A stretch of 64,000 nucleotides of DNA from assembly GCA_947454235.1 (NCBI GenBank), contig CANGIY010000010.1, forward strand, positions 1 through 64,000, in the 5' to 3' direction. The notes under the pieces were generated by a model. The model was not told where the DNA came from. It was given only the letters and a program-made list of their open reading frames with translations, and searched no databases. Position numbers and translations under genes: made by a program. The stretch is from Chitinophagaceae bacterium (GTDB lineage Bacteria; Bacteroidota; Bacteroidia; Chitinophagales; Chitinophagaceae). Shown piece after piece: positions 2,168-46,535 of the stretch. Position 1 is the stretch's first letter. Every line of letters begins with the position of its first letter.

Positions 2168-5100
2168 TTAACTGAACAAGAAAGCGATATCGTCCTTGGT
2201 GAGGCGTTTCATAATGGCATTGTCATCAGAAACGAGGTCGTTCGCCAATGTGCGTTTTGACTCTTGTAGTTGCAACATCTTTTCTTCCAGCGAATCTTTA
2301 CAAATCAGTCGGTAAGCGAAAATGTTCTTGGTTTGTCCGATACGGTGTGTCCGGTCAATGGCTTGTTGTTCTACAGCCGGGTTCCACCATGGGTCAACAA
2401 TGTACACGTAGTCGGCAGCGGTAAGGTTCAAACCTATACCACCTGCTTTCAGTGAAATCAGGAATACCCTGCAATCGTGATTGCTTTGGAATTCATTAAT
2501 CGCATCTTCCCTTTGTGTCGAAGTGCTGCTACCATCGAAGTACACATGGTGTATTTTCTCTTCTTCAAGTCTTTGCCTGATGAGCCCCAGCATACCGAGG
2601 AACTGCGAGAATATCAATACTTTATGGTCACCCACGTTTTCCATAATCTCACGGCTAAGCTCGTCGAGTTTAATGGAGTGGTTAGGCAGTTTTTCAGATT
2701 CTTTAAGTATCGCAGGTGAGTCACAAATCTGACGCAACTTAGTAAGTCCTTGCAAAATGTGCATTTGCGAACGTTCCATACCGCGCTCTTCAATCATACC
2801 CAAAATCTTAGAACGGTAGGTATTGCGGTAAGCTTCGTAAATTTTACGCTGCTCGTTGCCCATTTCGCAATACAATATGATCTCTGTTTTTTCTGGTAAG
2901 TCTTTAGCCACCTGTTCCTTGGTACGTCTGAGCAAGAAAGGGTAGGTGAGTTGTTTCAACTGCACCTTCGCTTCGCTTTCCCTGAATTTGTCAATTGGTG
3001 TTGCAAACTCGCTCATGAAAAACTCTCTGCTGCCCAGCATACCCGGGTTCAGGAAGTTCATTTGCGCATAAAGGTCGAACGTGTTGTTTTGGAGCGGAGT
3101 ACCACTTAGTGCAAGCCTGTTCTTACTCTGCAACAACAAAGAAGCCTTGGCTACCTGCGATTGCGGGTTTTTAATAGACTGCGATTCATCCAGTACCACA
3201 TAGTCGAACTCAATGTCTTTCAACATTTTAATATCGCTGCGCATGGTTCCGTAAGTAGTAATCACCACATCATATCCTTCAAATATTTGAGGAGATACCG
3301 AGCGTTTTGGCCCGTGGTGAATGTACTTGGTAAGGGTAGGTGTGAATTTATTAATCTCGTTTTCCCAGTTGAACATCAAGGTAGTAGGGCAAATAACCAG
3401 GTACCTTGGTGTTTTGTGGGTATTTTTATAATGTTGGAAGAACGCCAGAGTTTGTATGGTTTTACCGAGACCCATGTCATCGGCAAGAATACCGCCCCAG
3501 CCTGCTTCGTTCAGGAATTTCAGCCAGTGGAAGCCTGCATATTGGTAAGGCCTCAATACTGCTTCAAGGTGGTCAGGTGCCTTGGTGTTGGAATAGTCAT
3601 TGTCAATAATGCTCTCAAGGCGCACTTTCTTGCTTTCCAGCTCTTTCAATATTGAACCTTCATCAAGTTCTGCCATTAGCTCATCAAGTACACTGAAGTG
3701 GTACTTTTTGAGGCGCACTTTATTGCCCTTGGTTTCACCTACTTTGAGCAATAACGAATATTTTTTCAACCAGTCATCAGGCAACATACCCAACGACCCA
3801 TCGCCGAGTTTTACATAGTTCTGTTTGCTGCCCAGTGCTTTCTTAACGTCAGAAATACTTACTTTCTGGTCGCCGAAGCTCAGTTCAATGGTGGCGTCAA
3901 ACCAATCGATACCGCTCGAAACATTGATAATTGTTTCTGCAACATTGGTATTCACACGCAGGTTGCGTAAACGATCAAGACCGCGAAGCTCAATTTCTGA
4001 ATCTTTGAGTGTCTTCGTGAATTTAAAGAACCAGTTGTTTGACAATACCGCTGCCCCTGAAAGTTGGTAGGTGCCTTCACGTTTGTTATAGGTCAGTTCG
4101 TTGTGCAATGCCTTAATCTCGTCAGCAAATTCAGCTTCAATTTCAGGGTTGCGTTGAACAATTTTTACAATACCGTTGTGCGGTTCAATGACGTCGCCAT
4201 GAAAATTCATGCCTATTTCCATGCCTTCGTAGGCTAATTTTGGCTGAATCATGAACGTGTTGTCGCGCTCTTGCAGGTACACTATTTTCTGAGGTTTTGA
4301 AGCGGAAACCCTTTCAATGAATTCTTCAGAAAAATGAACGTGGATTTTGCTGTTCCAGTCCATCACATAGTCTCTCAGGTATGCCGGCCATTCCTTTGTT
4401 GGAATTTCCTTCAATCCATCTGGTTCAAAATGCTCGTTGATGATTACTTCCTTTAAAGAAGAAAGCGCGTAAATTTTATTTTTATACAACACCAATGCGG
4501 CATTGAGCAACTTCACATCTTTAAATGCAACGGCGTTGTTCTCAATAATCCATTCAAGGTTAATAGTTACTTTCCTGCCCGATTTTTTGACTTCAAGCTG
4601 TGGGTGCGCAGGCATCTCTCCGAATTCAATATCCGGTAAATTCAGCAATTGCGAACTCTTGCCTTGTGGACGAATGAACTTGAATGGGTGTACATTGAAC
4701 CTTTGCAGGAGCTTTTGGTATTTTGGTAAAAGGTATTCCCACAATTGCTCACGCACATCGTTTGATGGGCGTGCCCCTACTGATTCAACTTCATCGGGCA
4801 ATAAATCGCCGAACGGCAGGTTTTTCTTGACATATTTAACCAGCTCGTCGTCGTTGAATTTCCTCACCACCGGCAGCAAATCTCGGTCTGATTCCACAAA
4901 TCGTAGTGGGTTCAGGAATTGATGCAGTTCAAGCAATTCTTCTTTCTCTAGTAGTTTTGTGTCGGCTTCATCGGTAGTCGCTGCCACCAGTTTGAAATCG
5001 ACATAAGGGAAGTTTTGTTGAGCTGTATCGACGATAATACCCAGTCTTTTTGTTTCGTGCACAATTACCGGAATGGCAACTGTCTCTTTCTTTGGTGCAG

Positions 5101-5905
5101 GTATACCGCCTTGTGAAATCTTTTTAATGGTTGGATCCAGTACCCTTAAAAATGGTTTCCCGTTTTCGTAAGTGAAGGTGAACTTACCCTTAAGGTCGTC
5201 GCTCAGGCTATAGCCGTACTGCTCAAGTAATTTGTTCTTCTGGAAATCCCAGTTTTGCATGGTTTGGAAAAACTCCGCACCAAGTTTTTTCAGTACTTGT
5301 AAAAAAGTAGCTGTTTTATGAGCGCACAATGGGAAGCGGGCTTCCTTACATTGGCATGAAGTATCAAAATATCTTTCTTCGTTTTGTTTAATGGTAACCT
5401 TGTACTTTGTTTTACCGTCAACAACCTCAGCTTCAATTTTCTCGTTTTTACCCGGAGCAAGCGTAACCATCCCGTCAGAAAGCAGGTCTTCGGCTTTGTC
5501 TAGCGATTCGGGTGCAGTGAAAATTTGAATTACCTGTTTGCTTACCTGCCTCATGCGCACTACCGTATGTTTTTGGTCGTAGCTAACGTCCATATTCTCA
5601 AAGAAACCACTTTGAATAATGTCGTTAAGCTGGAATAGGGCAGCAACCTCGTGACGGCAAATCTCGCCCATGTTGTAAGGGCATTGGCAACGCGCAGCTA
5701 GTTCGGTAGTTGTGAGGTATTTATTAATAGTAACGGTGTAGTAATTTTGGTATTGATCGTTTTTAACACGAAAGCGAACTTGTTCAGCGAGGTGGTCAAC
5801 ATCAAGCATTTGAACGCCTGACGAATAAAAGATTTTCTTTCCTCGTTTAATAACTTCTTCTGTACCGTGATTGTAAACAAATTTTAAAATGGCCGGGAGC
5901 GACAT
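2168..5905 (-). CDS. SWIM zinc-finger SNF2/Rad54-type DEAD/H helicase
   Basis: A 1245-residue Swi2/Snf2-family ATPase, likely a DNA translocase acting on protein-DNA complexes. Near the N-terminus are two SWIM-type metal sites (CQCPYNMGEICRHEVAALF around residue 93 and CQCKEARFPLCAHKTATF around 180). The middle of about 500 residues resembles the bacterial SNF2 accessory region. The C-terminal motor has Walker A ADDMGLGKT at about 805, the DESQ box at about 905, LSGTPLQN, then helicase motifs V and VI (GGIGLNL and QAIDRTHRIGQ at about 1187). Length and order fit the bacterial 'SNF2 helicase-associated' family. The ATG at 5905 is preceded by a -7 box at 5940-5947. It is divergent from the aldolase gene. 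No neighbouring defence genes point to an anti-phage role. Confidence 0.92.
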   Translation of the reverse strand: MSLPAILKFVYNHGTEEVIKRGKKIFYSSGVQMLDVDHLAEQVRFRVKNDQYQNYYTVTINKYLTTTELAARCQCPYNMGEICRHEVAALFQLNDIIQSGFFENMDVSYDQKHTVVRMRQVSKQVIQIFTAPESLDKAEDLLSDGMVTLAPGKNEKIEAEVVDGKTKYKVTIKQNEERYFDTSCQCKEARFPLCAHKTATFLQVLKKLGAEFFQTMQNWDFQKNKLLEQYGYSLSDDLKGKFTFTYENGKPFLRVLDPTIKKISQGGIPAPKKETVAIPVIVHETKRLGIIVDTAQQNFPYVDFKLVAATTDEADTKLLEKEELLELHQFLNPLRFVESDRDLLPVVRKFNDDELVKYVKKNLPFGDLLPDEVESVGARPSNDVREQLWEYLLPKYQKLLQRFNVHPFKFIRPQGKSSQLLNLPDIEFGEMPAHPQLEVKKSGRKVTINLEWIIENNAVAFKDVKLLNAALVLYKNKIYALSSLKEVIINEHFEPDGLKEIPTKEWPAYLRDYVMDWNSKIHVHFSEEFIERVSASKPQKIVYLQERDNTFMIQPKLAYEGMEIGMNFHGDVIEPHNGIVKIVQRNPEIEAEFADEIKALHNELTYNKREGTYQLSGAAVLSNNWFFKFTKTLKDSEIELRGLDRLRNLRVNTNVAETIINVSSGIDWFDATIELSFGDQKVSISDVKKALGSKQNYVKLGDGSLGMLPDDWLKKYSLLLKVGETKGNKVRLKKYHFSVLDELMAELDEGSILKELESKKVRLESIIDNDYSNTKAPDHLEAVLRPYQYAGFHWLKFLNEAGWGGILADDMGLGKTIQTLAFFQHYKNTHKTPRYLVICPTTLMFNWENEINKFTPTLTKYIHHGPKRSVSPQIFEGYDVVITTYGTMRSDIKMLKDIEFDYVVLDESQSIKNPQSQVAKASLLLQSKNRLALSGTPLQNNTFDLYAQMNFLNPGMLGSREFFMSEFATPIDKFRESEAKVQLKQLTYPFLLRRTKEQVAKDLPEKTEIILYCEMGNEQRKIYEAYRNTYRSKILGMIEERGMERSQMHILQGLTKLRQICDSPAILKESEKLPNHSIKLDELSREIMENVGDHKVLIFSQFLGMLGLIRQRLEEEKIHHVYFDGSSTSTQREDAINEFQSNHDCRVFLISLKAGGIGLNLTAADYVYIVDPWWNPAVEQQAIDRTHRIGQTKNIFAYRLICKDSLEEKMLQLQESKRTLANDLVSDDNAIMKRLTKDDIAFLFS

Positions 5906-41534: not shown

Positions 41535-43331
41535 TTATTCTTCGAGTTTAAGAACTGCAAGGAAGGCTTCCTGTGGTACGTCAACTGAACCGAACTGGCG
41601 CATACGTTTTTTACCTTCTTTTTGTTTCTCGAGGAGTTTACGTTTACGCGAGATGTCACCGCCATAACACTTAGCAGTTACGTCTTTACGCATAGCCGAG
41701 ATGCTTTCACGTGCAATAATCTTAGCACCAATTGCAGCCTGAATAGCTATCTGGAACTGTTGACGCGGCAAAAGGTCTTTTAGTTTAGCACACAATTTAC
41801 GACCGAAGTCCTGCGCCCTGCTTCTGTGAATCAACGCACTCAATGCATCGAGCGCATCACCGTTCAGCAGGATATCCATTTTAATGATGTCACTTTCGCG
41901 ATAATCGAGCGGATTGTAGTCAAATGATGCATAACCCCTTGTACATGACTTCAAACGGTCGTAGAAGTCGAATACAATTTCTGTCAGCGGCATTTCATAA
42001 ATAATCTCAACGCGGGTAGGAGTGAGGTAGTGCTGGTTAATAAGGATACCACGTTTACCCAAACACAAGCTCATGATATTACCAATATACTCTGGTAATG
42101 TGATGATTTGCGCCCTGATGAATGGCTCTTCAATCCTGTCTAGTTTAACAGGCTCCGGCATTTCGGTAGGGTTATTAACTATAATTGCTTTTTCAGGTTC
42201 GCGTGTTGAATATGCTTTGAAGCTTACGTTCGGTACAGTAGTAATTACTGTTTGGTTGAACTCGCGCTCCAGGCGTTCCTGAATGATTTCCATGTGCAAC
42301 ATGCCCAGGAAGCCGCAACGGAAACCAAAGCCAAGTGCTTGTGATGTTTCAGTCTCGAAAGTGAGAGAGGCATCATTCAATTGAAGTTTCTCCATACAAT
42401 CGCGCAGGTCTTCGAAGTCGTCAGTTTCAACAGGGAAGATACCCGCAAATACCATTGGTTTTACTTCCTGGAAACCTTTTACAGCCGCTGTAGTAGGGTT
42501 ATTCACCGTAGTGATGGTATCACCCACTTTTACCTCTTTGGCGTTTTTAATACCTGTAATGATATAACCAACGTTACCAGCCGAAATTTCGGTTTGCGGC
42601 ATCAGGTTGAGTTTCATAATACCAATTTCATCGGCAGTATATTCTGCATCAGTATGTATGAAACGTACTAAATCGTTTTTACGGATTGTGCCATTGAACA
42701 CCCTGAAGTAGGCGATAATGCCCCTGAAAGGGTTGAACACACTATCAAAGATGACAGCCTGCAATGGTACAGTCGGGTCGCCCTTAGGAGCAGGGAGGCG
42801 AAGCACCACAGCCTCTAAAATATCTTCGATACCAATGCCCGATTTACCACTAGCCAAGATAATTTCTTCCGGTCTGCAGCCAATCAGGTCAACAATCTGG
42901 TCGGTTACCTCAGGAATCATAGCACCATCCATATCAATTTTATTGATAACCGGGATGATTTCGAGGTCGTTATCAAGCGCAAGGTAAAGGTTAGAAATTG
43001 TTTGCGCCTGAATACCTTGTGAGGCATCTACGAGCAACAAAGCACCTTCACAAGCAGCGAGTGCGCGCGACACTTCATAAGAAAAGTCAACGTGACCGGG
43101 AGTGTCAATGAGGTTGAAAATATATTGTTCACCCTTATAGTTGTACTCCATCTGTATAGCATGGCTCTTGATGGTAATACCTTTTTCACGTTCCAAATCC
43201 ATGTCGTCAAGCACCTGAGCCTGCATATCACGGTCAGAAATTGTTTTGGTATGTTCCAGTAAGCGGTCGGCCAAGGTGCTTTTACCGTGGTCGATATGGG
43301 CAATGATACAGAAATTGCGAATGTTTTGCAT
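41535..43331 (-). CDS. lepA: Elongation factor 4 (LepA), ribosome-bound GTPase
   Basis: A 598-residue translational GTPase acting on stalled or initiating ribosomes. The G domain has [16 protein letters not shown] (residues of about 11-26), DTPGHVDF (about 77) and NKIDMDGA (about 131). The LepA-specific C-terminal domain ends in [19 protein letters not shown] and [17 protein letters not shown], both family hallmarks. Length is standard. A -7 box lies 17 nt upstream; immediately beyond it begins the first copy of a 24-bp direct repeat that bounds an inserted-looking block. Confidence 0.98.
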
Positions 43332-43347: not shown

Positions 43348-43355
43348 CAAATATA
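43348..43355 (-). promoter_or_regulatory. -7 box of lepA
   Basis: Reads TATATTTG on the minus strand, an exact match to TAnnTTTG, 16 nt upstream of the ATG. The direct repeat at 43357-43380 covers the spacer and -33 zone. Confidence 0.6.
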
Positions 43356-43356
43356 C

Positions 43357-43380
43357 GTTATTTCATTTTTGTAAATGATT
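43357..43380 (+). repeat. 24-bp direct repeat, left copy
   Basis: GTTATTTCATTTTTGTAAAT followed by GATT; identical to 45700-45723. With flanking bases the match extends to 29 positions with two C/T differences. It lies between the lepA promoter and the palindromic element. Confidence 0.85.
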
Positions 43381-43487
43381 CGCCTCACGTAATGTTAGTA
43401 CAAAAACAATTGTAGGCTAAAACGCACGGTGTTTAAGGGGGATTTTTGAAGGGTTTGTTCTGTTTAATATGAACCCACAATTTGGTT

Positions 43488-43710
43488 AAGCGTGGAATCT
43501 TCTACGCTTGGGTGATGCAGGTATTTGACCTGCTGGTGCAATGTTGTTGTTACCGGGCGTAAGCCTTCCGCCCCTACATTTTCGCATTAAAAATTACCTG
43601 TCTAAAAATAAATCCCCGGTAGGGGCGGAAAATTTTCCGCCCTGTATCTCCACCATCTAAAATAGGCGCCATCCTTTCTGAAAATTCTGTAATTCTGATT
43701 CAAACAATCC
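43488..43710 (+). repeat. Compound palindromic element, copy B
   Basis: Palindromes in order: a 10-bp stem starting AAGCGTGGAA (43488-43509), GCAGGT/ACCTGC (43517-43533), GGGCGTAAG with a near-complement (43555-43573), and the perfect 20-bp GGGCGGAAAATTTTCCGCCC (43623-43642). They end in AATTCTGTAATTCTGATTCA-like words (43677-43710). It is an inverted, diverged copy of 1880-2099 with the same tail facing the next gene. The 444-bp gap around it holds no convincing gene. Confidence 0.8.
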
Positions 43711-43775
43711 CTTATTTTTAGTAATTTTATTTCAAAAAGAATTTTTGCGTGTTTAACAAATGAAAATAATCCCTT

Positions 43776-44087
43776 ATGATTACACTCGACACCACCGGCT
43801 ACGCAGCCCGTCATTCCAGAATCAATGAAAACTCGAGCACGATCAAATACTCTGTTTACCCCAACCCAACAAGCGGACTGTTTTACATTGTTCAAAATGT
43901 TGCTTTTAATCAAAGCGTACAAATTGTTGTAAAAGACTTGCTCGGTAAAGAAGTGATAACAAAACGAGACAATTTCTATAACGGACGAATATCAATTGAT
44001 GTAGAACAATTAGTTTCTGGCGTGTACATTGTAGAAATGCTTGATAGTAAGAGTGTAAAATCGCAGTTTAAGTTTGTAAAAGAATAG
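43776..44087 (+). CDS. Orphan T9SS type A sorting domain (no signal peptide), probable gene remnant
   Basis: A 103-residue open frame that is almost entirely a T9SS sorting domain: KYSVYPNPTSGLFYIVQN (about residues 24-41), VVKDLLGKEVITKRD, then VSGVYIVEMLDSKSVKSQFKFVKE at the end. The 23 residues before it (ITLDTTGYAARHSRINENSS) look like the linker of a longer protein. No signal peptide can be found; the frame has a stop at 43767-43769, and the ATG at 43760 leads into another frame that soon stops. It is probably the 3' remnant of a lost secreted protein, or a stand-alone domain. The next gene starts 5 nt downstream. Confidence 0.7.
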   Translation: MITLDTTGYAARHSRINENSSTIKYSVYPNPTSGLFYIVQNVAFNQSVQIVVKDLLGKEVITKRDNFYNGRISIDVEQLVSGVYIVEMLDSKSVKSQFKFVKE

Positions 44088-44092
44088 TATTT

Positions 44093-45337
44093 ATGCGACA
44101 GATTGTAGCACTAATTGTTCTAATTTTTTTACCCATTTGTAGTTGGAGTCAAATTAACTTGGTATTAAATCCATCATTTGAGAATCATACAGCATGCCCT
44201 GACAATGAAGATGAAGTTACTTACAGCATCGGCTGGACTTCGTTAGATAGTGCGTGGCGTGCACCAGACTGGATACATGATAAAAGTGGAGTACCTGAGT
44301 ATTGTCACCTCTGTGCATCTGATCATACAGTTGGCATTCCGTCTGGAGCATATTTTTTCCAATATTGCCGCACAGGGAACGGAATGATGCAGGTACAAAT
44401 GTATCATAGATATAACGAATATGGCACGTACGATAGAGACTATTTGCAGGGCAGGTTTACCCATACTTTAGAGGCTGGTAGAAGCTATAAAGTGTCCTTT
44501 TATGCGGTTGGCGCAGGGATATTTGTAGTAAGCAAAATTGGAGCTTATTTTGACGATGGTACAATTGATACAACGTTGCACCCACAATGGGGGCAGTATC
44601 ATTGCCACCCACAAATTGTTGATACCAATATTATTACTGATACTGCCAATTGGGTGGAGGTATCTGGTGTGTACACTGCGACTGGTAATGAAAAGTTTAT
44701 AACAATCGGGCAGTTTGCGCATAATTATGAAACTAGGTCTTTAACTTACCTAGATACCACTCATTTAACGTGTACTCCTTGTGATTTCTATTCGTGGTAT
44801 CTTGTTGATGATGTCTCGGTAATAGACTGTGCCACCATGCCCTTTGCGGGTAATGATACCTTGATACACCCCGGTGATAGCGTGTTCTTAGGTACTTATG
44901 AGGCACTGATACCGTGGTATTGGTATCAATTGGGCAGCAGTACTGCAATAGACAGCGGAGGTGGCTTGTGGGTACACCCCACAGCTACTACCCGGTACGT
45001 GGTTACACAGGATATTTGTGGTGATGGTATAAAAGCTGATACCATAACCGTGCATGTATGGCCTGATACCCCAACAGTGGTACACACCATCATTGACCCA
45101 ATCAATATCAATGTATACCCTAACCCCACCAGTAGTGAATTTACCATTGATGGCGCACGAGGTTGTACAGTTGAGATAATAAACGCCATAGGGCAGACAG
45201 TGCTTCAAAAAGAGGGTATCACTAAACGCGAGACAATTGATATTTCGATGCTGGAAGATGGCGGTTATATGGTTGTTGCTTACAATCCTGTGAGTGGGGT
45301 AAGGGTTGTGAGAAGGATTGTGAAACGAGGGTGGTAA
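44093..45337 (+). CDS. Secreted protein with jelly-roll-like domain and T9SS type A sorting domain
   Basis: A 414-residue exported protein. The signal peptide (RQIVALIVLIFLPICSWSQ) is followed by INLVLNPSFENHTACPDNED, the 'NPSFE' start typical of beta-jelly-roll carbohydrate-binding-like modules of Bacteroidota, which runs to the closing SWYLVDDVSVIDC (about residue 245). An Ig-like module follows (AGNDTLIHPGDSVFLGTYEA). The last 75 residues (ININVYPNPTSSEFTIDG, EIINAIGQTVLQKEG, VVRRIVKRGW) are a type A sorting domain. It lies inside the block flanked by direct repeats and ends at a terminator. Ligand unknown. Confidence 0.85.
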   Translation: MRQIVALIVLIFLPICSWSQINLVLNPSFENHTACPDNEDEVTYSIGWTSLDSAWRAPDWIHDKSGVPEYCHLCASDHTVGIPSGAYFFQYCRTGNGMMQVQMYHRYNEYGTYDRDYLQGRFTHTLEAGRSYKVSFYAVGAGIFVVSKIGAYFDDGTIDTTLHPQWGQYHCHPQIVDTNIITDTANWVEVSGVYTATGNEKFITIGQFAHNYETRSLTYLDTTHLTCTPCDFYSWYLVDDVSVIDCATMPFAGNDTLIHPGDSVFLGTYEALIPWYWYQLGSSTAIDSGGGLWVHPTATTRYVVTQDICGDGIKADTITVHVWPDTPTVVHTIIDPININVYPNPTSSEFTIDGARGCTVEIINAIGQTVLQKEGITKRETIDISMLEDGGYMVVAYNPVSGVRVVRRIVKRGW

Positions 45338-45360
45338 AATATTTTGAATATATGATGAAC

Positions 45361-45392
45361 AAGAGCCAGTGCCGCAGTGCTGGCTCTTGTTG
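45361..45392 (+). terminator. Terminator of the T9SS protein gene
   Basis: Perfect 9-bp stem AAGAGCCAG/CTGGCTCTT (45361-45369 with 45380-45388), 10-nt loop, then GTTGTTTGTT. Confidence 0.8.
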
Positions 45393-45412
45393 TTTGTTAT
45401 ACTAAAACTGGT

Positions 45413-45529
45413 CGAGGCGTCTCGCCTCGTCCTAATACTGCGCAAGCGTCCCGCTTGCCGGTCATAAATTGAATATTGTTGGAAAGCAAGCGGGACGCTT
45501 GTATGTGTATAGGTCGAAGCGGATGCTTC
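45413..45529. repeat. REPIN-like cluster of short palindromes
   Basis: Four short palindromes with 3-4 nt centres: CGAGGCG/CGCCTCG (45413-45429, centre TCT), GCAAGCG/CGCTTGC (45442-45458, centre TCC), CAAGCG/CGCTTG (45487-45501, centre GGA) and GAAGC/GCTTC (45516-45529, centre GGAT). The second and third are reverse complements of each other about 28 bp apart, the layout of a REPIN (two inverted REP units). No gene is seen here. Confidence 0.75.
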
Positions 45530-45560
45530 AACCAGGGTGCGGATTATATGTATCTCCACA

Positions 45561-45635
45561 GCGTGAGGGATAGCAACGGAAAGCCCACAGCGCAGCGAGG
45601 ATTTGCAGTGTATAGCCCGACCCGCAGGGACACGC
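45561..45635 (+). repeat. Structured intergenic repeat starting GCGTGAGGGATAGC
   Basis: The ends GCGTG (45561-45565) and CACGC (45631-45635) pair. Inside are two similar arms, GGGATAGC...AAAGCCC and GTGTATAGCCCGACCC. From memory this text type (AGGGATAGCnnCGGAAAGCCC, TATAGCCCGACCCGCAGGG) recurs in intergenic regions of many Bacteroidota. It is probably a dispersed repeat or RNA element rather than a gene. Confidence 0.55.
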
Positions 45636-45699
45636 CCAAAGACCTTCTTATGTTATGCGGAAAATGCTTGACCAAGTGAGCGTTTTTCCAACACGACAT

Positions 45700-45723
45700 G
45701 TTATTTCATTTTTGTAAATGATT
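45700..45723 (+). repeat. 24-bp direct repeat, right copy
   Basis: Identical to 43357-43380 and in the same orientation, 2343 bp away. It sits just upstream of the trmH promoter. Confidence 0.85.
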
Positions 45724-45751
45724 TGCTGTAAGTACATCGGTTAAAAACCAT

Positions 45752-45759
45752 TAATTTTG
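45752..45759 (+). promoter_or_regulatory. -7 box of the trmH-rarA operon
   Basis: TAATTTTG matches TAnnTTTG, 5 nt before the TTG start at 45765. Confidence 0.6.
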
Positions 45760-45764
45760 TACAC

Positions 45765-46535
45765 TTGAAATTCAAACATGCACATAGGCCGGCACCGCGT
45801 TTGCCGCTTATTATAGGTCGTAAACCACTTCTCGAAGCCCTTGAACAAGGAAAGGGAGTGGAGAAAATATTTATGCTTCGCACAGCGACGGGGCCTGAAA
45901 TCAATGAAATAAAGGCGGCTGCCAGAAATGCCAATATCCCGTTGAGCATGGTTCCCATTGAAAAACTTGATGGCTTTACCAAAGTGCAACACCAGGGTGT
46001 TGTCGCTATTTCAACGCAGTTGGAGTATGTCGATTTGCAAAACGGCATTTCTCATGTTGTGGAACAAGGGCTAAACCCATTGTTTATTTTGCTCGATGGC
46101 GTTACTGATGTGCGCAATGTGGGAGCTATTGCACGTACAGCACTTTGTTGTGGTGCGCAGGGGCTTATTCTACCCACGTCACATGCGGCATCATTGAATG
46201 AAGATGCCATTAAAACCTCGGCAGGGGCACTCACTAAAATTTTATTATGCAGGGTTCCTTCTACGCCGCAGGCAATAGACATTTTAAAGCTCAACGGTAT
46301 TCAGATTTTGGGTACGCAAATGAAGGGCAGTGTACCTGTGTTTGAAAGCGATATGACAGGGCCTACTTGCATAGTTATGGGTGCCGAAGACACCGGCATC
46401 AGCAAAGATGTTTTAAAGCGCGCCGATCAATTAATCAGAATTCCAATGGCGGCTCAGTTCGATTCGCTGAATGTTTCGGTGGCTACGGGTATGATTCTTT
46501 ATGAAGGCTTGCGCCAGCGTACACTCGGCAAGTAA
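45765..46535 (+). CDS. 23S rRNA/tRNA 2'-O-methyltransferase of the SpoU family (RlmB-like)
   Basis: A 256-residue SPOUT methyltransferase. The N-terminal substrate-binding domain contains IIGRKPLLEALEQGKGVEKI (residues of about 16-35). The catalytic knot has motif 1 LLDGVTDVRNVGAIARTALC (about 108-127), motif 2 IVMGAEDTGIS (about 207-217) and motif 3 IRIPMAAQFDSLNVSVATGM (about 227-246). RlmB modifies G2251 of 23S rRNA; the exact target here is not readable. There is no in-frame ATG near the 5' end, so the TTG at 45765, 5 nt from the -7 box, is the likely start. It is in operon with rarA. Confidence 0.9.
   Translation: MKFKHAHRPAPRLPLIIGRKPLLEALEQGKGVEKIFMLRTATGPEINEIKAAARNANIPLSMVPIEKLDGFTKVQHQGVVAISTQLEYVDLQNGISHVVEQGLNPLFILLDGVTDVRNVGAIARTALCCGAQGLILPTSHAASLNEDAIKTSAGALTKILLCRVPSTPQAIDILKLNGIQILGTQMKGSVPVFESDMTGPTCIVMGAEDTGISKDVLKRADQLIRIPMAAQFDSLNVSVATGMILYEGLRQRTLGK

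Follow-up and report, generated by a model that had tools for sequence, protein, structure and literature searches.

A 2.3-kb block between lepA and rlmB framed by a 24-bp direct repeat: the possible scar of a single insertion or rearrangement

Between lepA and rlmB in a Bacteroidota chromosome lies a block of about 2.3 kb (43357-45723 of the window, the whole 64-kb stretch of DNA that was analysed) which is framed by the two copies of a 24-bp direct repeat. Because this repeat is significant, is confined in the genome to this one pair and is no common promoter element, its likeliest origin is insertion or recombination. The leading explanation, held tentatively, is that a single insertion or rearrangement in the past left the repeat, 24-27 bp long, as its footprint. 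The initial annotation had taken the block to be an insertion or a cassette; the insertion or recombination part of that reading is retained here, but its trans-mobilised cassette with an attachment core is unsupported.

The genome and its relatives

The genome that contains the window is in 47 contigs and totals 4.17 Mb (its contigs that figure below are C1, C5, C8, C15, C23, C34 and C35; G-numbers are the genomes of relatives). Its nearest relatives by RlmB are Flavipsychrobacter and Chitinophagaceae or Bacteroidetes bins. Full-length RlmB identity within the genus is 76-79%, so no conspecific is among the genomes compared, which include 10 others of the genus that are 70-100% complete. The G+C content of the block is 0.423 versus 0.426 for the window.

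The direct repeat

As initially annotated, 43357-43380 and 45700-45723 are identical over 24 bp on the forward strand. The match is 26 of 27 positions when extended to 43383 and 45726, and the 27 of 29 claimed with flanks holds for 43355-43383 and 45698-45726. No other exact direct repeat in the window reaches 18 bp. In 100 dinucleotide-shuffled versions of the window no such match arose, even at 3 mismatches, and the longest word common to shuffled flanking intergenic pieces was 13 bp in 2000 shuffles. The 24-bp repeat exceeds chance expectation.

A search of the 4.17-Mb genome with up to 3 mismatches allowed finds the 24-mer twice, both times at this block. At 3 mismatches the 27-mer is absent from the 10 other genus genomes (some of them incomplete), and the 24-mer from 175 non-own loci (1.28 Mb) that include the regions upstream of lepA and rlmB. 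With two genomic copies, none in the genus relatives and none in those loci, the 24-mer is not the widespread promoter element that the initial annotation had set against an insertion. A search for other blocks bounded by the same 24-mer, which it had proposed, found none in the own genome or in the 10 genus relatives. The core of the 24-mer contains a short 6-bp dyad, TCATTT/AAATGA, and the 18-bp dyad core, with up to 2 mismatches allowed, matches at 5 places in the genome (2 of them the block copies) versus 1 for a reversed control.

Similarity ends at the edges of the repeat, sequence further out being no more alike than shuffles (p 0.57 on the right and 0.66 on the left). An end so abrupt on both sides is what a short target duplication would give; a longer duplication since decayed is rejected, no homology being found past 24-27 bp. 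Terminal inverted repeats were not detected at the inner ends of the block with 30, 40, 60 or 100 bp compared (p 0.42 to 0.74). Copy 1 is followed, ahead of the dispersed repeats, by 95 bp of unique DNA (43384-43478) that lack another own-genome match at E<=1 among the best 40 of 101 candidates. At the other end 58 bp without a convincing other copy (45642-45699) separate the last repeat cluster from copy 2, the alignment with C15 extending to 45654.

A resident cargo unit with dispersed repeats

What the initial annotation listed inside the block is there: palindromic repeats within 43488-43642, a sorting-domain fragment, a complete cargo gene of the type 9 secretion system (T9SS), a terminator-like hairpin and a repeat cluster at 45408-45641. 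The fragment is a remnant of 103 aa (43776-44087, forward strand) that still holds a T9SS type A sorting domain (PF18962 1e-13, TIGR04183 45.3 bits); it has in-frame stops just upstream and no signal peptide that could be seen by eye. After a gap of 5 bp comes the 414-aa type A cargo gene (44093-45337, forward strand; PF18962 1.5e-9, TIGR04183 36 bits), whose product has, also by eye, a signal-like N-terminal start. The sorting domain (Por_Secre_tail / TIGR04183) is above its curated cut-off in both proteins. Scanning nine ORFs inside the block with Pfam gave these two T9SS proteins and seven ORFs without a family above cut-off; no transposase was among them and, as had been claimed, no recombinase is recognisable in the nine. 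The hairpin (45358-45391, forward strand; inverted repeat I12) is one of 3 terminator-like sites found in the region, versus 2.0 expected.

Paralogs of the cargo protein are encoded on C8 (68% amino acid identity over the full length), and on C15 and C34 (C-terminal part, 82% and 76%), with full-length paralogs at C8, C1 and C23. The order of remnant and 414-aa cargo is repeated at C1:44121-45811, and at C23 a complete 662-aa partner is upstream of a 420-aa cargo. The own genome has at least 150 sorting-domain matches (the best 150 of 241 candidates). The pair in the block is otherwise nothing unusual: it is a decayed two-gene unit with one intact cargo gene.

The 5' part of the block is a dispersed REP-type cluster (43479-43736) with copies elsewhere in the own genome. 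It comprises a palindrome at 43488-43509, an inverted pair at 43566-43577 and 43619-43630 (inverted repeat I10) and a GTAG-tagged palindrome at 43619-43642. GTAG is the tag of one REP super-family in the account excerpted from PMC3733652, where the GTAG repeats are from other phyla and those of Bacteroidetes are CGTC repeats; going by its tag, the palindrome may be a candidate member of the GTAG super-family. Behind the cargo gene is a 128-bp REPIN (45408-45535), also with own-genome copies, whose REP arms (45408-45458 and 45486-45535) are on opposite strands. A gene for a RAYT, or REP-associated tyrosine transposase, at C35:2021-2575 (NF047646 97.6 bits, cut-off 80) has such REPs on its two sides, likewise as an inverted pair. 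Among the matches listed, the REPIN arm is matched in at least 7 of the 10 other genus genomes, and repeats of the types in the block, all kinds together, amount to at least 52 pieces in 38 clusters outside it. Judged by this arrangement, the RAYT is probably what moves the small repeats, though not the block. The spacers of unique sequence (95 and 58 bp) that set the 24-mers apart from the clusters imply that the ends of the block were not set by the REP machinery.

The REPIN is followed by a Flavo-1-like RNA element (45548-45626, forward strand; E 0.0021 with the RF01705 model). Eight of the nine other Flavo-1-like loci scanned also match the model, every one below the gathering score, and nothing in the whole window reaches a gathering score for an RNA family. 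Flavo-1 is described as a Bacteroidetes motif in an excerpt of PMC2864571, and the relevant excerpt of PMC9723704 has its matches in Flavobacterium psychrophilum giving no functional clue. At the end of C5 a terminator-REPIN-Flavo-1 stretch, 97% identical over 293 aligned bases, stands behind a different sorting-domain tail. Own-genome relatives thus exist for the cargo gene, for this stretch and for the 5' cluster, and by these likenesses the block content is ordinary resident, repeat-rich DNA of this chromosome.

Repeats and sorting domains are close together at a number of sites in the own genome. Twelve of the 38 clusters are within 500 bp of a sorting domain (the best 150 of 241 candidates, the block's own clusters excluded) and all 12 are downstream, where uniform placement would put some 2-3%. 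[This count excluded 9 of 63 entries, namely the block itself, overlapping or within-block reverse matches and one cargo-coding match, and a further 2 cargo-only entries were dropped.] In two relatives, G004 with 8 loci and G007 with 12, none of the 20 repeats is within 500 bp downstream of a sorting domain, the nearest being at 569 bp. These loci were selected among the matches listed, 17 having a REP arm and 3 a Flavo-1-like part, and the sorting domains were searched for with an HMM built from 27 own-genome domains. Sorting domains are near the relatives' repeats in 3 of 20 stretches versus 4 of 20 shifted controls. With none in the relatives and the controls equal, the excess in the own genome is taken as a by-product of gene duplication, paralogous genes being co-duplicated with their flanks, and REPs as a T9SS-specific 3' module are rejected. 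REPs are generally at the 3' ends of genes, as excerpted from PMC3733652.

The flanking genes and their order in relatives

To the left is lepA (elongation factor 4; 41535-43331, reverse strand; TIGR01393 970.5 bits, cut-off 533.9) and to the right rlmB (SpoU family; 45765-46535, forward strand; TIGR00186 186.1 bits, cut-off 160.15), both transcribed away from the block. The right-hand gene had been named trmH. It is above the cut-off for the 23S rRNA methyltransferase RlmB and scores 94.7 with the TrmH equivalog versus a cut-off of 227, so the name is corrected.

Housekeeping promoters had been placed directly beside the repeats, and this holds as far as motifs go. The predicted -7-like box of lepA, TATATTTG (43355-43348, reverse strand), is one base away from copy 1. 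For rlmB the predicted box, TAATTTTG (45752-45759, forward strand), starts 29 nt beyond the end of copy 2; the consensus for such a box is TAnnTTTG in the excerpt of PMC9723704. Comparing upstream sequences by eye, a TATCTTTG box is at the matching position in all 7 genus lepA loci, and similar boxes precede several rlmB genes in relatives.

No lepA was found near rlmB at the 29 non-own rlmB loci, taken with as much as 1.5 kb of flank, or in the 31 named genome contigs (L071-L101), for which flanks extended to at most 6 kb (some flanks in both sets being limited by contig ends, and the two sets partly overlapping in genomes). Among the genus genomes, lepA was found in 7 of the 10 others and rlmB was not found in G001 or G002. 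In G009 the two genes are about 4.2 kb apart, convergent and in a different order, and gene order around both is highly variable among relatives. The genes being non-adjacent in the relatives examined, there is no empty site among them to compare, and the sequence comparison suggests that the lepA-rlmB junction is derived.

Origin of the block

The event proposed would have placed a 2.3-kb piece of the species' own chromosomal DNA between lepA and rlmB, at what would have been a 90-bp divergent spacer (52 + 38 bp by arithmetic). The same event would have duplicated 24-27 bp of target sequence, as happens when a staggered break is filled in, whether through a transposase or through break repair. 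The DNA so placed would have consisted of the decayed T9SS unit of two genes, preceded by REP-type repeats and followed by the REPIN and Flavo-1-like element. We infer both the insertion and its direction. The block is probably immobile now and would be plain chromosome, with one intact cargo gene and with lepA and rlmB reading outwards from their own promoters.

The restriction of the 24-mer to one pair, the abrupt edges, the equal G+C, the own-genome relatives, the recurrence at C1 and the non-adjacency of the flanking genes in relatives all count for such a scar. Against it, no empty site was seen, and the variable gene order in relatives means that lepA and rlmB may never have had a 90-bp spacer. 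The ends of the block also have no terminal inverted repeat, and unique sequence (95 and 58 bp) sets the 24-mers off from the dispersed repeats. Ku-dependent end joining is unsupported as the version of break repair at work, since no Ku gene was found in the own genome (the search gave a match in 1 of 14 control genomes).

The dispersed clusters on each side of the cargo gene raise another possibility, a rather unlikely one, namely that REP-driven homologous recombination joined two repeat clusters and that the 24-bp pair came from a separate earlier local duplication. Same-orientation REP-type repeats are present on both sides of five other own-genome cargo genes, and the variable gene order near lepA and rlmB would also suit it. 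However, the 24-mer is not a REP and unique DNA separates it from both clusters, so REP recombination alone is insufficient.

The length of the repeat is what commends a doubtful third explanation, in which an IS1202-like element with a long target duplication (24-27 bp) inserted and was later replaced or eroded, leaving its repeat around unrelated DNA. One subgroup of the family makes target duplications of 16-28 bp, according to an excerpt of PMC10132070. The family has terminal inverted repeats, though, and none is detectable at the ends of the block, nor was a transposase family found in the nine ORFs scanned.

It is improbable that the 24-mer is an operator or promoter piece common to lepA and rlmB that was copied, or maintained by selection. 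While the 24-mer is near both promoters and holds the short dyad, its distances from the two are unequal and its orientation to them is opposite. It is also absent, at 3 mismatches, from the 10 genus genomes (as the 27-mer) and the 175 non-own loci (as the 24-mer), and its 18-bp core has only 5 genomic matches, both copies included, against the 1 of the reversed control.

More improbable again is the mobile cassette that the initial annotation had favoured, with the 24-mer as an attachment core and movement in trans by a site-specific recombinase. The block is exactly framed by two direct copies, and the dyad is in the core of the repeat; but this is the single such block in the genome, there is none in the 10 relatives and a large share of what it contains is resident, repeat-rich DNA. 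No recombinase is recognised inside and the ends have no detected inverted repeat. The exact 24-mer has no match in viral contigs, which leaves a phage attachment site rejected. Nothing in the GC skew points to a terminus or dif site: the cumulative curve climbs throughout the region, single 2-kb values being near zero. The fetched stretches around the paralogs at C8, C1 and C23 have no framing exact repeat of 18 bp or more, and the long direct repeats around other cargo genes (213 kb; up to 12 repeats listed per stretch) are, among those listed, REP-type, tandem-gene or duplicated-flank repeats. Very improbable is a non-autonomous cassette, by which an unknown activity would put T9SS cargo units in intergenic sites, leaving a 24-27-bp duplication and sparing the neighbouring promoters.

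Taken as a lone scar, the block is of little importance. It illustrates the accumulation of decayed secreted-protein genes and REP-type repeats between Bacteroidota housekeeping genes, and offers one clean, checkable site for the within-genome spread of T9SS cargo, where a single copy of the 24-mer is expected when unoccupied.

Comparison with known systems

Among the named elements considered, only the IS1202 subgroup with 16-28-bp duplications is near in duplication length, as far as the excerpt of PMC10132070 goes. The direct repeat is alike in length, whereas the block has no detected terminal inverted repeat (24-26 bp in the Acinetobacter members in the same excerpt) and no recognised transposase. 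The T9SS pair is like tandem and multicopy type A cargo genes in its domains, and differs from them in that the upstream partner is a sorting domain only. With REPINs and REPs that are accompanied by a RAYT (NF047646), the block shares the inverted REP pair, the like flanking of a RAYT gene and the dispersed copies, but a REPIN of about 130 bp accounts for neither a 2.3-kb block nor the 24-mer. The Flavo-1-like element is a full-length match to the Flavo-1 RNA model (RF01705), at 28.9 bits against a gathering score of 42.

Repeats around cargo genes

The block between lepA and rlmB (43357-45723), with its 414-aa T9SS cargo gene, is framed by an exact 24-bp direct repeat, and a T9SS cargo gene elsewhere in the same genome, on contig C3, is also flanked by two direct repeats, these being imperfect, each about 250 bp or more in length, spaced 2337 bp apart and inclusive of a REP (whole arrangement C3:52568-55156; L210:2569-5157). 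REP-type repeats in the same orientation lie on both sides of four further cargo ORFs in this genome: C1:407796-409697, C8:15347-17806, C8:77639-78889 and C7:38985-40907 (for the last, the upstream repeat is within the likely spurious N-terminal extension of the ORF). Pieces of the dispersed REP-type repeats of the block (cluster A, 43479-43736) also occur at 1884-2066 of the window, about 100 bp past the stop codon of the large gene at 2168-5905 (minus strand), which encodes an SNF2 helicase.

Contigs C15, C34, C30 and C33 (L161, L163, L195, L196) all stop within cargo paralogs. Their ends form two pairs, with exactly 149 terminal bases identical within each pair, and therefore a longer identical middle segment, common to two or more cargo genes, probably broke the assembly. 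Such a segment probably reflects recent conversion or duplication.

The noncoding 3′ stretch

Downstream of the block's cargo gene are a terminator-like hairpin (45358-45391), a REPIN (45408-45535) and a Flavo-1-like element (45548-45626). A 97% identical copy of this stretch near the end of contig C5 (L164:2677-3224) adjoins a sorting-domain tail unlike that in the block, and so the noncoding 3′ stretch seems to move independently of the gene preceding it.

Comparison with known elements

On contig C35 (L201:1860-2720) an inverted REP pair brackets a gene for a REP-associated tyrosine transposase (RAYT; C35:2021-2575, 184 aa). The RAYT gene directly follows an NHL-type T9SS cargo gene, itself a truncated tandem copy, which gives the appearance of an insertion into the cargo array. 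CGTC-type REPs are described in PMC3733652 as being without a dedicated transposase. The Flavo-1-like element has matches in 8 of the 9 other loci searched. The copies score 28.8 to 37.6 bits, all below the Rfam gathering score of 42 for Flavo-1 (RF01705); they are a diverged family occurring in this genus, and the Rfam model is perhaps too restrictive to cover it.
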